Below are positions 975 to 48,530 of a stretch of 64,000 nt of DNA, one piece after another. Source of the stretch: Bdellovibrionia bacterium (lineage in GTDB: Bacteria; Bdellovibrionota; Bdellovibrionia; Bdellovibrionales; JAGQZY01). The translations under genes and the position numbers were made by a program. The stretch lies in the NCBI GenBank assembly GCA_030427805.1, contig JAUICP010000002.1:620001-684000 (forward strand), written 5' to 3'. Positions within the stretch are counted from its first letter, which is position 1, and each line of letters starts with the position of its first letter. The notes under the pieces are model-generated. The model searched no databases and was not told where the DNA came from. It saw nothing but the letters and a program-made list of their open reading frames with translations.

Positions 975-1654
975 TGAATTTTGATAGCCGATCCTACGGC
1001 GGGAAATACTTTAGACCCTCACCAGATATCCACCAAGACGAGGGCCTGCCACTACTGATTATCAGTACTCCTTGGGGAGCTTCTAATGGCTCGCAAAAGG
1101 TCTTTGATCGCATGCTCGAGTATTTGCAGCTGGCACAAAAAGACGAAGAAATTACTTCGCCTTTTCCGAGACAAACCTGCTTAGGTTCTGTTGCTAATAA
1201 TCTACGGATCGCCACCCTTCTTGCCAACGCAGCTCTGTATAAAGAAGAAAACCAAACTGAGTACTCTTCAGGAGCCGAACTCTTTGCCTGTTATAAAGAA
1301 GATAACGAGTTTACCTGGATTCAAGTCGGACAACCCAACATCGTTCTCTGTCGAGAAGGTGAAACACCAATGCCTCTTGGTTCCTTTCCAGACTTGGTAC
1401 TCGACTTCGAAAGGCAAGAGACTCGACTCTCACCTTTACCATCTAACCTTATTGGGATTGAAAATAGCTTGAACCTCAACATAAGTTCCTTTCGTCCAAA
1501 TAAGGGGGATAAAATCTTATTAATAAGTCGGTCTCGGGTACCGGGGACTTTGTTTAGTTTAGAAAACAAAGATATTAATCTGGACCTTGTAAGCCGTACC
1601 TTAGCTAAGGACCGAGAAGACCAGCCTTTTTGGTTAGGCCTTATCGAGATATAA
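974..1654 (+). CDS. divergent PP2C-like protein, probably catalytically inactive
   Basis: A 226-residue soluble protein without signal peptide or membrane segment. Its order of elements follows the PP2C phosphatase fold: an early strand then Gly-Ala (LPLLIISTPWGA) where PP2C has VADGMGG, a helix then IQVGQPNIVL where PP2C has VGDSRAYL, and GDKILLISRSRV where PP2C has GDxLLLCSDGL. All metal-binding Asp positions visible in the genuine PP2C at 38025-38759 are replaced here. It is coupled to the upstream TPR gene, with an internal GGGGAGG ribosome-binding site. I infer a pseudophosphatase that binds a partner or phosphoprotein; the family match is by motif order only and could be wrong. Confidence 0.5.
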   Translation: MNFDSRSYGGKYFRPSPDIHQDEGLPLLIISTPWGASNGSQKVFDRMLEYLQLAQKDEEITSPFPRQTCLGSVANNLRIATLLANAALYKEENQTEYSSGAELFACYKEDNEFTWIQVGQPNIVLCREGETPMPLGSFPDLVLDFERQETRLSPLPSNLIGIENSLNLNISSFRPNKGDKILLISRSRVPGTLFSLENKDINLDLVSRTLAKDREDQPFWLGLIEI

Positions 1655-1679
1655 TGAATGAGTTAGGAGACTTGCATAT

Positions 1680-2468
1680 ATGCAAAACGCAGTAGCTAAA
1701 GACACGACATACGAATGGGGACTCAGTCACGGTCCCGTTCAATCTCCCCGCTTTGGGAACCATGTTGAAGTGAATCCTCTCGGCCAAGAAAAGGTTTGCT
1801 CATTTGACTGCCCTTACTGCAATCTTGGCCCTTCTTATATGCGAATGAATCAGATCAAAAAAGAATATGAATTTCCTAGCATCGCCGAAATAGAAGAAAG
1901 CACTCGAATGACATTGAGAGCTGCTCGAGCCAACAATGAAAATTTGAATACAATTTTGGTGTCTGGGAACGGAGATCCTAGTCTCTATCCCAACTTAGCT
2001 GAATTGTACGATATGTTGTCGAATGTGAGAGATGATATTTATCCGGATGCATCTATTGAAATACTCACTAATGGAGCAAAAATCGATACACGCAAATCCA
2101 TTGATGCCATGAACAAGTTTGAAAAGATTCACATCAAATTGGATGCTGGTAGCGACAAAGTACTTAAGCAAATTAATACGCCCCTAGTTCGCACAACGAT
2201 CTCACAAATCGTGTCGACCGCTAGGAAGCTAGAAAATGTGGTCATTCAAAGTCTCTTTGTCCAAGGGATTATGGATAATACCACTGACAGCGAAGTCGAA
2301 GAGTGGGTTGAGTCGATTAGTTTGGTCGAACCAAAAGAGGTTCATATCTACACTCTTCAACAGGACCCTCAGGTGCCTGGCATAAAAAAGGCCGATGAAA
2401 ATCGACTTTATTTTATCTCTTCGATTCTTGAGCGTAAAAAGAAGATCAAAACCCTCGTTGTTCCCTAG
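1680..2468 (+). CDS. radical SAM protein
   Basis: A 262-residue protein with the radical SAM cluster motif CX3CX2C at residues 40-47 (CSFDCPYC), followed by NLGP. Further on are a Gly-rich SAM-contact strand (ILVSGNGDPSLYP) and a later strand (IEILTNGA). The compact size, the early cluster and the motif context resemble the COG0731 group of Fe-S oxidoreductases, related to the core of wybutosine-synthesis enzymes; the substrate is unknown. The ATG has AGGAG upstream. It lies 25 bp after the PP2C-like gene on the same strand and may share its transcript. It ends 47 bp before a convergent gene. Confidence 0.8.
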   Translation: MQNAVAKDTTYEWGLSHGPVQSPRFGNHVEVNPLGQEKVCSFDCPYCNLGPSYMRMNQIKKEYEFPSIAEIEESTRMTLRAARANNENLNTILVSGNGDPSLYPNLAELYDMLSNVRDDIYPDASIEILTNGAKIDTRKSIDAMNKFEKIHIKLDAGSDKVLKQINTPLVRTTISQIVSTARKLENVVIQSLFVQGIMDNTTDSEVEEWVESISLVEPKEVHIYTLQQDPQVPGIKKADENRLYFISSILERKKKIKTLVVP

Positions 2469-26278: not shown

Positions 26279-27481
26279 CTACCTTTTCCAGCGGGAGGAT
26301 TTGGCGTAAATCTCAATTGATTTGCGAATTTCTTTGAAATGCATGGGGATGCGAATATAGGGAATTCGGCTGATATTCAGCTTTTCAATCTGTTGAGTTT
26401 CTTTCTCTAAATCGTGCTCTATTTTTAAATGTAAGGACTCACTTGCTTTATTCCACTCCATCAACGGCAAGAAGGCTTCTAATCCACAGGTCTTAAGCCA
26501 TTGAACAAAGAATTTATTTTCCCGCTGCAGATGGGAGGTAAAGTCAGTTTCCAGCATTTTGGGACTCGCAAAGAAATACTTATTGGCGATAATGGGTTGG
26601 TACCCACTGGGCAAAACTGAACAAATTCCCATTTGCTTATTGAGAACCTCAGCAAAGGATTTCGGAAGCTCCTTAAAAAACACAGAGTGAATCATTGAGA
26701 GACTGTAAAACCGGCTCCTCCTAAACTTCTGGATTTGGTCACGATCCAGAGCCTCAAAGCCTTTCAGAGGATAGGTTCGCTGAAGCTGCCCCTCGATCAA
26801 CATGAGGTCCGCAGCGATCATCATTGCAAAAACCGAAGTCGAGTGGACAGCGAGCCGAATCGCCTTCCTCAGGAGCCCATAGGCCTTTTCCACCTCATTT
26901 TTTTGAAAATGCTGAGCCAATCGCACACTGAGCAGGTTTCGAAATTCGAAAAATTTCGAAACCTGGAGTTCTTCCAATTTCTCAATTTGTTGCATGTAAT
27001 TTTGGTCTTTTAAGGCCCCCAACGCCTTTTTTGCTCGATCACTCGCAAAAAGATTCCAATGGTCAAAATCATGGATTTTATCGAGCCAGGAAATATCAAT
27101 ATCAGCCCATTCTGGGTAGGTTATAAAATTGAGGAGCTGCCCTTCCGAAGACGTCGAAAGCCTTTCTCGATCAACAATATCGAGAATCCGCTTAAGACCT
27201 TTATCCGGGACCTCTTCTGCTGGCAGAAAGCCAACATAGGCTTCTATGTAGGGCTGAAAGTTTGCCTTCCAGGGACTTTTCTCAAAGTGGGGAAGTTGTG
27301 ACAATTCAACAAGATCCTCCAGGACCTCTAACCTCTTTTCAGCCAAATCAGTCATCTTCTCTTTGATTTCCGGAATGGAGTGTTTGGCAATAATCATTTG
27401 AGAAAAGATTGGAATAATCCCAAAGGAGAAAAGAAGTACTATGACGAGAATTGTGATGATAATTCTAAGAAGGATTTTCAA
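26279..27481 (-). CDS. single-pass membrane protein, uncharacterised family (copy 1)
   Basis: A 400-residue protein starting at TTG with GAGAGG at good spacing. One membrane segment (IIITILVIVLLFSFGIIPIF) precedes a large helical domain. It is clearly related to the product of 47292-48530: shared landmarks are DISWLDKIHDFDHWN against DLDWVKEVLDYDHWN, a Gly/Cys segment (MGICSVLPSGYQP), WLKTCGLEAF against WFKICDLEAF, and a final IPYIRI. I do not recognise the family. The upstream region contains three copies of an 11-bp palindrome. The basic C-terminus (SSRWKR) is absent from the other copy. Confidence 0.65.
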   Translation of the reverse strand: MKILLRIIITILVIVLLFSFGIIPIFSQMIIAKHSIPEIKEKMTDLAEKRLEVLEDLVELSQLPHFEKSPWKANFQPYIEAYVGFLPAEEVPDKGLKRILDIVDRERLSTSSEGQLLNFITYPEWADIDISWLDKIHDFDHWNLFASDRAKKALGALKDQNYMQQIEKLEELQVSKFFEFRNLLSVRLAQHFQKNEVEKAYGLLRKAIRLAVHSTSVFAMMIAADLMLIEGQLQRTYPLKGFEALDRDQIQKFRRSRFYSLSMIHSVFFKELPKSFAEVLNKQMGICSVLPSGYQPIIANKYFFASPKMLETDFTSHLQRENKFFVQWLKTCGLEAFLPLMEWNKASESLHLKIEHDLEKETQQIEKLNISRIPYIRIPMHFKEIRKSIEIYAKSSRWKR

Positions 27482-27509
27482 AGCTCAGCCTCTCGATTCG
27501 GAGATATTT

Positions 27510-27603
27510 TTGTCTGACAATAATGCAAACGAGACCATAGTAAAAAATCGAGTCTTTGTCAGACAACCCATTTTTCAAAGGCGCGACTTCATTTGTCAGA
27601 CAA
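27510..27603. promoter_or_regulatory. three copies of the palindrome TTGTCWGACAA
   Basis: Perfect 5-1-5 palindromes (TTGTC, A or T, GACAA) lie at 27510-27520, 27556-27566 and 27593-27603, centred 34, 80 and 117 bp upstream of the leftward gene's start. The first falls between a possible leftward -35 (TTGCAT on the minus strand, 27523-27528) and a weak -10 (TATCTC, 27501-27506). Together with the copy at 27719-27729, they look like binding sites for a dimeric regulator. No candidate regulator gene is adjacent. Confidence 0.6.
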
Positions 27604-27676
27604 TTTCACAAAACTGAGGAGTTTTTTGCTAAACAATCTCACTTTTAACGATAACGAATTGTCTTACATTGGCTCA

Positions 27677-27690
27677 CAGACCAGGGTCTG
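27677..27690. repeat. inverted repeat CAGACC-AG-GGTCTG
   Basis: A perfect 6-2-6 inverted repeat lies between the third and fourth copies of the TTGTCWGACAA palindrome. It shares the CAGAC half-sequence with them and may be a variant site for the same protein, or chance. It is about 60 bp upstream of truA. Confidence 0.3.
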
Positions 27691-27718
27691 GGGTGATTCG
27701 ACAAATATCCATTGAATT

Positions 27719-27729
27719 TTGTCAGACAA
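27719..27729. promoter_or_regulatory. TTGTCAGACAA palindrome upstream of truA
   Basis: The fourth perfect copy of the palindrome, identical to those at 27556 and 27593, ends 18 bp before the truA ATG. A partial copy (TTGTCTTACAT) is at 27659-27669. A bound protein here would overlap the truA promoter or transcription start. Confidence 0.55.
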
Positions 27730-27747
27730 TCGACAATAAATCTTCCC

Positions 27748-28536
27748 ATGTCTTTGAAACCCCGATACCGACTTACACTTGCCTACGACGGAACTGATTT
27801 TTTCGGCTGGCAAAAACAAAACAAGCCCGATCAGCCCAGCATCCAGTCCGAACTCGAAGAAGCTCTGGGCAAAATCTTCAATGAAAAAATCCAGGTCATC
27901 GGTTCTGGACGTACGGATCGGGGAGTTCACGCTAAGGCTCAGGTTTGCCACTTCAACTCACCTCTGAGACTCATGTCTAGCTTCGATCTCCCCTATAAAC
28001 TCAATGAATTGACGGCTCCTGGAATATGCGTGCACAGGATTCAAACCTGTCCACCCCGTTTTCACGCTCAACTTTGGGCAAAAAAGAAGACCTACGACTA
28101 CTTCATCGATCCCCGTAAAAGGCCCGATGCCTTCAATCTCAGGTACTCTTGGCACTATCCCTATCGCCTGGACTTAGAAGAGCTAAATAAAATGGCGGAG
28201 CTCATTACCGGAAAGATGGATTTTAAGAGCTTTCAATCTAAGGGAACGCCAACTCCGACTACGGTGAGAACGATTCTCAATTGCAAATGGGAGGAACTTG
28301 AGGATGGACGTCTTCGCTTCCGAATCGAAGGCGATGGCTTTCTCAAACAAATGGTGAGAAACATCGTTGGTACGATGATTGGCTTCCAAAAAGATGAAAT
28401 CGCACCCGAAAAGATAACTGAGGTCATCGAAGCCCAAGATCGACAGAAAGCAGGAGGGACTGCCCCAGGCCACGGCCTTTTTATGGACCACGTTGACTAT
28501 GGCCCAGATACTGACGGGCTGTGTAAGGAGTTTTAA
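27748..28536 (+). CDS. truA: tRNA pseudouridine(38-40) synthase TruA
   Basis: A 262-residue enzyme making pseudouridine at positions 38-40 of the tRNA anticodon arm. The N-terminal RYRLTLAYDGTDFFGWQ, the catalytic Asp57 in GSGRTDRGVHA and the later FLKQMVRNIVGTM are characteristic. I use the ATG at 27748; a longer frame from a TTG at 27712 adds residues not found in the family. There is no obvious ribosome-binding site before the ATG. The upstream region carries the palindrome cluster, which is unusual for this housekeeping gene. Confidence 0.93.
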   Translation: MSLKPRYRLTLAYDGTDFFGWQKQNKPDQPSIQSELEEALGKIFNEKIQVIGSGRTDRGVHAKAQVCHFNSPLRLMSSFDLPYKLNELTAPGICVHRIQTCPPRFHAQLWAKKKTYDYFIDPRKRPDAFNLRYSWHYPYRLDLEELNKMAELITGKMDFKSFQSKGTPTPTTVRTILNCKWEELEDGRLRFRIEGDGFLKQMVRNIVGTMIGFQKDEIAPEKITEVIEAQDRQKAGGTAPGHGLFMDHVDYGPDTDGLCKEF

Positions 28537-38939: not shown

Positions 38940-39863
38940 ATGAACAAGAATAGACTCTTTATCACAGCTATTATTCTTTCTATTGCACTTCACTTGCTTA
39001 CGTCCTTTGGTCTATTTCTCGCTGAATACAACCCGCCCAAGGTACAAGAAGACCCCTTTAAAAACGCTGTCGAACTTGTAGACGCTGAGACCTTGAAAAA
39101 ACTCCTCAAAGATTCAGGCGGCCAAATCGTTGAACAAAACGAAAAGGCCCTCAACGACGAAATCCCCGAGGATGCTAAATTTCTCAGCAAAAACAACCAA
39201 AAGGTTGTCCAAGAGACGAAGGCCGCTAAATCTGGAAAGTACAAAAACACCAATGACCAGCACACGGGACCAAAACCAACCTCGCAAAAGCAAATGGTTC
39301 AGGTCAAACCTCCGCAGCAAATCAAACCCAATAAGGGTAAGACATTTACCACACAAAAGAATTCACCAGTGGCTTTGCCTAAGCTGGTCGACCTCAAGCC
39401 GAGCTTTAAGCCCGGAGAGACCTTTACTCAGCACCAGCCAAAAATTCAAAATGCCGGTGGTGCGGGACCGAGCCAAACGGATGACTATCTCAAGGATGTG
39501 AAAACTGGCTTGCAAACCCTTTTAAGTACTAGGGAATTCGTCTATTACTCCTACTACTCGCGAATCAAAAACAAGCTTCGCCAGTACTGGGAACCCATGA
39601 TCAAAGAGAAGATTACCCGACTCTTGCGTTCAGGCCGAAGTATTGCTTCGAGCTCTAACCGGGTCACTAATCTCGTCATTACCCTCGATCAGAAGGGTCA
39701 CCTGGTGAAGGTTCAGGTGGTCGGTGAGTCTGGAGTTCGAGACTTAGACGATGCTGCCATCGAGGCTTTTGAAGAGGCAGCTCCTTTTCCGAACCCGCCC
39801 AAAGGGATTGTCGAACAAGACGGTACCATAAAAATTCGTTGGGACTTTATCCTCGAGGCCTAA
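38940..39863 (+). CDS. TonB-family energy transducer
   Basis: A 307-residue protein with a short basic N-terminus, one membrane segment (LFITAIILSIALHLLTSFGLFLA), a long Lys/Pro/Gln-rich periplasmic linker and a C-terminal TonB domain (LVITLDQKGHLVKVQVVGESGVRDLDDAAIEAFEEAAPFPNPPKG). TonB proteins carry energy from ExbB/ExbD to the outer membrane. The only ExbB/ExbD here is at 4425-5466 and a TonB-dependent receptor is at 30259-32319, so the three parts are unlinked. It has AAGGA before the ATG. A role other than nutrient uptake, such as envelope integrity, is possible. Confidence 0.88.
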   Translation: MNKNRLFITAIILSIALHLLTSFGLFLAEYNPPKVQEDPFKNAVELVDAETLKKLLKDSGGQIVEQNEKALNDEIPEDAKFLSKNNQKVVQETKAAKSGKYKNTNDQHTGPKPTSQKQMVQVKPPQQIKPNKGKTFTTQKNSPVALPKLVDLKPSFKPGETFTQHQPKIQNAGGAGPSQTDDYLKDVKTGLQTLLSTREFVYYSYYSRIKNKLRQYWEPMIKEKITRLLRSGRSIASSSNRVTNLVITLDQKGHLVKVQVVGESGVRDLDDAAIEAFEEAAPFPNPPKGIVEQDGTIKIRWDFILEA

Positions 39864-47295: not shown

Positions 47296-48530
47296 TTATC
47301 CACGTCTTTATGGTCCTCACTATAGAGTTTCATAAAGTTTGGGGCAGAGATTGTGTATAAAATCATGCCTGTAACTGCTCTGATATAAGGAAGCTTCCCT
47401 TTATTAAAGCTTAAGGGAGCTTCCTTTAGATTTTGACCCAAAGGCACTTGAGAAAAGTCTCGACTGAACCACGGCATACTTCCCGGTGGACTATAACTCA
47501 ACCATGAATCGAATGCTTCTAAGTCACAGATTTTGAACCATTCTTTTTTACGTTTAATTTCAAGATCCATAGAATCTCTCAAATTAAATTCCAAGGGAAA
47601 CTGCCCGCCTAAGAGATCACTATAGAACAAATCACCCGTAATAAATTCAAAAACACCACCGCAGGCATTTGTGCCCGGTTTAATATGACGAACAATATTT
47701 TGCGGAAGGGGCTCTGAAGAAAATCGTCGAAATACTGCGGGCCAGGAGTAACTGGATCGCTTTAACCTTTTGATAAAATCCTCCGGAATTTTTTCTACAG
47801 AGTTTAATTTAAAGTGGTCTACCAAAGAATTTCTTAGGTTCATATTACTTACAACCATCATCTGGCCCACTAAGCTGGAAGAATTGAAAAATACAAAACT
47901 AAGATGGTCGACGAGTTTAAAGGCAGCCTCCGTATTTGATTTCGCGATTTGTTTGAAGGCGTAAAGAATCGACACAAACTGCATTTCTTCAAAATTAGGA
48001 ATGGGCAGTCGAGACCAATACTCAAGTCTTTTTAAGTTGTTCTTTTTCGAGTAGGCCTGAATCCCTAAGAATGTCGCCTTATTGTAGGTAAGATTATTCC
48101 AATGGTCGTAATCCAAAACCTCTTTGACCCAATCAAGATCGATTCGCGAAAACTCTTTATCTTTAAGAATCTCACCCCAGTTCTCAGGCTTTTTAATCTT
48201 GCCAAGGAATTTTTCTTTTAAGGACTCATACTCATCTGGCACTCCAGGCCCCATCCCCGTGTTGGAAGTCAAAACTCCCATTCTTTTTAAATAAAATTCT
48301 TCCAGATTTCTTTCGCGCTTTGAGAGGAACTGAAAGTGAGGACTCTTTTCTAGGTATTCTAAATCTTCGACAAAATTTTCCAGATACATGTCGACATAAT
48401 TATGGGACTTCTCTATTTCAGGATAGTAGTAAAAACGACAAACGAGGTAAGTCGAAACAGCAATAATCAACCACAGTACGAAAAATCCGCCGATACTCGA
48501 TATCAATGCTCTTTTAAAAAATTTTGACAT
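47292..48530 (-). CDS. single-pass membrane protein, uncharacterised family (copy 2)
   Basis: A 412-residue protein with one N-terminal membrane segment (residues 12-32) and a large helical periplasmic part. It is a divergent paralogue of the product of 26279-27481, sharing DLDWVKEVLDYDHWN, WFKICDLEAF and LPYIRA. Cys positions in the C-terminal half (NACGG, ICDLE) match those of copy 1. Function is unknown. It follows the O-methyltransferase gene by eight bases on the same strand, so the two are probably cotranscribed. The palindrome sites seen upstream of copy 1 are absent here. Confidence 0.65.
   Translation of the reverse strand: MSKFFKRALISSIGGFFVLWLIIAVSTYLVCRFYYYPEIEKSHNYVDMYLENFVEDLEYLEKSPHFQFLSKRERNLEEFYLKRMGVLTSNTGMGPGVPDEYESLKEKFLGKIKKPENWGEILKDKEFSRIDLDWVKEVLDYDHWNNLTYNKATFLGIQAYSKKNNLKRLEYWSRLPIPNFEEMQFVSILYAFKQIAKSNTEAAFKLVDHLSFVFFNSSSLVGQMMVVSNMNLRNSLVDHFKLNSVEKIPEDFIKRLKRSSYSWPAVFRRFSSEPLPQNIVRHIKPGTNACGGVFEFITGDLFYSDLLGGQFPLEFNLRDSMDLEIKRKKEWFKICDLEAFDSWLSYSPPGSMPWFSRDFSQVPLGQNLKEAPLSFNKGKLPYIRAVTGMILYTISAPNFMKLYSEDHKDVDN

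Follow-up and report, generated by a model that had tools for sequence, protein, structure and literature searches.

What protein uses the short palindromes clustered between a membrane-protein gene and truA in this Bdellovibrionia bacterium, and which genes does it control? The window, that is, the whole 64-kb stretch of DNA analysed, belongs to a 4.5-Mb genome that is 98.9% complete, in which it begins on the first contig at position 620001. Within it, a divergent intergenic region of 266 bp (27482..27747) separates the minus-strand gene of a 400-aa membrane-anchored protein without a Pfam or NCBIfam match (26279..27481) from the plus-strand truA, which encodes tRNA pseudouridine synthase (27748..28536; PF01416, 3.8e-38) and has its ATG at 27748. 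A preliminary description of this DNA had reported four perfect copies of TTGTCWGACAA in the region and attributed them to a dimeric regulator of the membrane gene, truA or both. The four copies are indeed present, starting exactly at 27510, 27556, 27593 and 27719.

Site 1 (TTGTCTGACAA, 27510..27520) lies 28 bp upstream of the start of the membrane gene. Sites 2 (27556..27566), 3 (27593..27603) and 4 (27719..27729) all read TTGTCAGACAA, and site 4 is located 18 bp before the truA ATG. The centres of the sites are irregularly spaced, at 46, 37 and 126 bp; the step from site 3 to site 4 corresponds to 12.0 helical turns, and the other two to 4.4 and 3.5 turns. Two weaker copies accompany them. 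The partial copy at 27659, already reported, is real (TTGTCTTACAT, 27659..27669, two mismatches), and an additional imperfect copy, TTGCTAAACAA, absent from the preliminary description, occupies 27626..27636 and fits the relaxed family motif described below. The 6-2-6 inverted repeat reported at 27677 is also genuine (CAGACC-AG-GGTCTG, 27677..27690), with a sequence that differs from that of the operator. No further place in the 64-kb window matches TTGTCWGACAA with at most one mismatch.

Such clustering is hardly explained by chance, as had been surmised for this locus. Shuffled windows contained a mean of 0.07 exact copies, with a maximum of one in 100 shuffles, and when the 266-bp intergenic region was shuffled 20000 times, no more than one copy ever arose. 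Across the genome, TTGTCWGACAA occurs six times, compared with once for a reversed control pattern: four copies form the array, one precedes the ATG of a gene for a 97-aa protein by 40 bp, and one falls within a beta-lactamase-like frame. The preliminary description had proposed scanning the genome for the palindrome and its downstream genes, and had named a common motif without promoter bias as evidence against its reading. The scan returned a rare motif, of which five copies occupy intergenic DNA ahead of a gene and one falls in a coding frame. Near-matches with one mismatch also exceeded the control genome-wide, with at least 78 versus at least 59, and at least 57 versus at least 28 in a second comparison, among the matches listed; no wider regulon is proposed on this basis. 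At the density of the rest of the genome (two copies in 4.5 Mb), the Poisson probability of four copies in 266 bp is approximately 8e-18. Apart from the shortness of the motif, nothing speaks for chance or a repeat artefact; the shuffles and the genomic background make chance untenable, and the retention of the sites in a second species, with a change that preserves the palindrome, leaves this explanation practically no probability.

That second species is represented by the genome G001, the sole other species of the genus among the relatives returned, and the array itself was seen only in these two close species. The same six places carry the exact site in G001, including the copy in the beta-lactamase-like frame, which is found in the ortholog of that frame. 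Similarly, the variant WTTGTCNGACAAW (any centre base, A/T on each side), searched with zero mismatches, occurs at four places in each of the two genomes, three of them within the array and the fourth ahead of the 97-aa gene. The intergenic region differs between the species at 8 of its 266 positions, one of these being a one-base gap, compared with 51 of 234 fourfold sites in the flanking genes (23/104 in truA and 28/130 in the membrane gene; Fisher P 4e-11). Sites 1 to 3 are identical in the two species, and the only change in the four sites together is an A to T substitution of the central base of site 4, after which the palindrome is still perfect. The imperfect copy at 27626 is conserved, the partial copy is changed at 0 of 11 positions, and the 6-2-6 repeat is unchanged. 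Because the spacers between the sites are conserved too (7/222 positions changed), it is the whole intergenic region that is constrained, and not the sites alone. A structured RNA in this region was considered and rejected, as the sole hit of an Rfam scan lay far below the gathering score (E 0.74). A coding frame in the conserved region is likewise unlikely, given two single-base indels between the species. Overall, it is almost certain that a single DNA-binding protein docks on the four palindromes.

The array also coincides with a predicted promoter. A sigma-70-like element reading into the membrane gene on the minus strand (CTGACA-17-TATGGT, 27534..27562; a consensus match only) overlaps site 2, which includes its -35-like CTGACA; TATGGT follows at 27539-27534, and site 1 lies just downstream. 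In total, three promoter-like sites were found versus 0.7 expected. The proposal of a dimeric regulator is well supported by the rarity of the motif, its conservation and its promoter placement. The membrane gene is the probable regulated gene; we regard truA as a possible second target whose control by the array is on the doubtful side. A paralog of the membrane gene is encoded at 47490-48467 of the window (minus strand; 20% identity, E 2.5e-15) and is found in G001 too; the scan of the 64-kb window detected no exact TTGTCWGACAA near it.

The palindrome had been described as matching no recognised site, a statement that does not hold. The literature on the site and related operators led to AlkR, CrgA (PMC6422896), LhgR and RptR, and two of these regulators have footprints equal to sites found here. 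AlkR of Pseudomonas aeruginosa SJTD-1 (GntR/VanR, FCD subfamily) leaves the footprint ATTGTCAGACAAT, which is letter-for-letter the site upstream of the 97-aa gene (PMC12042122). LhgR of Pseudomonas putida W619 (GntR) protects TTGTCTGACAA, the sequence of array site 1, in its own promoter (PMC8206213). TTGTCWGACAA indeed conforms to the GntR/FCD operator type NyGTNxACNy. AlkR further acts as a dimer that binds the palindrome and represses from over the -10 region, resembling the arrangement proposed for the array; it differs in having one principal palindrome and two weak sites at alkB2, compared with four to six sites here (PMC12042122). The gene for LhgR adjoins the metabolic gene that it targets (PMC8206213), which is not the case for the 97-aa gene.

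These identities would be expected if a GntR-family FCD regulator of the VanR/AlkR/LhgR type bound the sites and the 97-aa gene were just another target. However, neither domain was found in the 98.9% complete window genome: the GntR domain PF00392 gave no match, with 12 of 14 control genomes positive, and the FCD domain PF07729 gave none, with 8 of 14 positive. Because no such match exists in the genome, the binder is probably something else, and a GntR/FCD regulator was rejected as the likely binder. Such a regulator would also leave unexplained the related sites upstream of the homologs of the 97-aa protein, and we consider it very improbable.

A regulator gene carrying the site in its own promoter had been suggested as something to look for, and the 97-aa gene (G000:C3:226161-226451) is such a candidate. 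It has the sole intergenic copy outside the array, ATTGTCAGACAAT, and its proximal upstream block, site included, is identical in both species, with the stretch beyond diverged. This site could also mark the gene as a mere target of an unseen regulator, and the family to which the gene belongs bears on the matter. When 140 genomes of the order were searched with the single sequence, 8 gave a hit, and a profile built from these hits yielded 30 homologs, spread over 26 of the 368 phylum genomes searched. The homologs are short, in most cases begin with a basic stretch, and have in common Y-P-x-x-x-F-R and then two predicted helices with K-N and A-L-x-x-G-L. These sequences place the 97-aa protein in an undescribed family, present in the phylum, whose members are short and basic; we found no published description of the family or of the array in the literature searched. 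Plasmid and phage records contained no useful homolog.

Some family genes are preceded by the half-sites of the array. The pattern TTGTNNNACAA (TTGTN3ACAA) occurs 11 times within 120 bp upstream, in 8 of the 30 family genes, compared with a mean of 0.19 and a maximum of 3 in dinucleotide shuffles of the 120-bp regions, a test that is partly post hoc, the half-site pattern having been fixed after the upstream regions were viewed. When the two genomes that suggested the motif are left aside, nine sites remain in 6 of 28 genes, three of which (L092, L096 and L102) form a close subfamily. Spacers of 1, 2, 4, 5 and 6 gave 0, 2, 0, 0 and 0 sites. A relaxed motif (TTGTN3RCAA or TTGYN3ACAA) identified 20 sites in 14 of the 30 genes versus 0.47. 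As controls, TTGTN3ACAA was present within 150 bp upstream of none of 17 RHH_1 genes and none of 17 ZapA genes, and in 3 of 210 generic upstream regions, one of which is the array itself. The strict site is absent from 22 of the 30 homologs and even the relaxed site from 16, and several family genes carry other palindromes upstream. In L102, a long inverted repeat of two facing TTGTN3ACAA sites precedes the family member at 1435-1704 (minus strand). The only other TTGTN3ACAA in the window is a lone TTGTCGAACAA at 39808-39818.

Mainly because the operator type found in the window recurs at homologs only 23-44% identical, the near-identical G001 copy excepted, we name the 97-aa protein as the binder, and on this comparative sequence evidence it is likely to be the cognate one. 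The chief competitor is a different regulator (TetR, MarR, XRE or similar) that binds both the array and the site upstream of the 97-aa gene, with the 97-aa protein acting elsewhere. Many dimeric regulators bind short palindromes, and no DNA-binding domain was recognised when the 97-aa protein was searched. Moreover, among viral contigs, 23 stretches (L148-L170) contain at least two close copies of TTGTCWGACAA, one of them five in a row and one fifteen in total; no homolog of the 97-aa family was found in their available DNA, and unrelated proteins may therefore use the site. Such a regulator does not account for the fact that these half-sites, equally spaced, are enriched ahead of the genes for the 97-aa homologs, and we judge it fairly unlikely.

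We examined whether the 97-aa protein resembles known DNA-binding folds. Two AlphaFold models (pLDDT 78 and 87) comprise an extended stretch and two helices; in the model with pLDDT 87, the helices span residues 22-40 and 52-70 after the extended stretch, and no strand is assigned in the monomer. Ribbon-helix-helix (RHH) repressors include MetJ, Arc and CopG. The 97-aa family is similar to these in its size, basic N-terminus and conserved FR[VIL] followed by two helices, and differs in its longer inter-helix loop and in having neither a profile nor a fold match. Comparisons with Pfam and NCBIfam gave no match of note for the family, Foldseek searches with the models gave none at E<=0.001, and a PDB sequence search, PHROGs and PADLOC returned nothing decisive. 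Among the 25 of 31 families listed for Pfam matches of the 30 members at E<=0.1, no RHH family was present. Profile comparison gave 11.8% against 17 RHH_1 proteins and 2.6% against ZapA. In VIA-align, ZapA (PF05164) scored Z 5.0 over 73 residues with an rmsd of 5.9; the window genome encodes its own ZapA elsewhere. A match to the MazE antitoxin, which we take to be of RHH type, reached Z 4.2-4.5 with an rmsd over 11 and was not counted. Viewed by eye, the models suggest that the fold is probably a dimerising strand plus two helices, similar to ribbon-helix-helix. A recognised RHH_1 regulator of the window genome was rejected as the binder, as the genome yielded no RHH_1 match.

The genomic neighbourhood of the family is rich in mobile and defence-type genes. 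A Resolvase gene (PF00239) adjoins 8 of the 30 family genes, divergently in seven cases and downstream in one, DUF2779 proteins adjoin five, phage integrases two and a C5 DNA methylase one. Together, these kinds of neighbour account for at least 16 of the 30 members, based on a Pfam scan of 20 neighbour proteins picked by eye, four of which had no match. The DUF2779 proteins were weakly Cas4-like in two cases scanned against PADLOC and in one in Pfam. In L081, L082, L084, L087 and L099 the homologs are divergent from DUF2779 genes, some with helicase- or methylase-like frames downstream (by eye). The loci that combine a homolog with DUF2779 are possibly defence modules with their own regulator. 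A comparable system is RptR, a small regulator that represses its own promoter via repeated palindromes and travels with defence genes (PMC12255303), features that recall those proposed for the 97-aa family. RptR differs in its 6-bp TAGCTA site, compared with TTGTCWGACAA here, and in having its operator repeats at its own operon and not at a distant locus; its subunit is described as alpha-helical, and the likeness to the 97-aa protein is one of description.

Proximity to recombinase or integrase genes, together with several copies in one place that resemble partition sites, would also be compatible with a structural or segregation role, in which the array is a centromere-like site for a partition or nucleoid protein and not an operator. 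Against this, the other intergenic copy is single and upstream of a gene, and the array spacing is irregular; we consider such a role highly unlikely. The 97-aa gene of the window genome itself adjoins metabolic-looking frames (by eye), from which it is divergent. We take these, from their gene names read by eye, to be a 2-methylcitrate operon. The non-mobile neighbours and the conservation in both species look like chromosomal residence. In the stretch L007:4162-5770 (on G000:C3), the gene of a 418-aa protein with weak Ig-like hits comes shortly after the 97-aa gene and is possibly in the same transcript.

Taken together, it is reasonably probable that the four palindromes, with one or two weaker copies (27626 and 27659), form an operator array for a homodimer of the autoregulated 97-aa protein, which would bind there and control the membrane gene. 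A dimer would sit on each TTGT-N3-ACAA palindrome. At its own gene, the protein would lower expression via the lone site that precedes the ATG by 40 bp, an arrangement that fits autorepression. At the array, it would occupy sites 1-3, which cover the promoter of the membrane gene, and most likely repress this gene, with occupied sites 1 and 2 blocking the promoter; we somewhat favour repression over activation. Through site 4, next to its start, truA may come under common regulation; this site could impede truA expression, or its role could be limited to looping, its centre being 12.0 helical turns from that of site 3.

Regarding its origin, we tentatively suggest that a mobile-type, self-regulating family was recruited to the chromosome in this genus, that an operator array was built before the membrane gene and truA, and that the GntR/FCD operator was reached by convergence. 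If this is true, a former mobile-element switch controls a housekeeping neighbourhood. To our knowledge, regulators with an assigned binding site are few in this phylum. What is new here is that a member of an undescribed family emerges as the candidate binder, and that its operator has apparently converged on that of GntR/FCD regulators. Our analysis suggests that a genome in which no GntR/FCD protein is found can still employ the 11-bp palindrome typical of such regulators, and that assigning a regulator from a motif alone can mislead. An orphan operator gains a candidate protein whose family is undescribed, and, if the 97-aa protein binds the array, this would open up the whole family, of which 30 members were found, over half of them near recombinase, integrase or defence-type genes.
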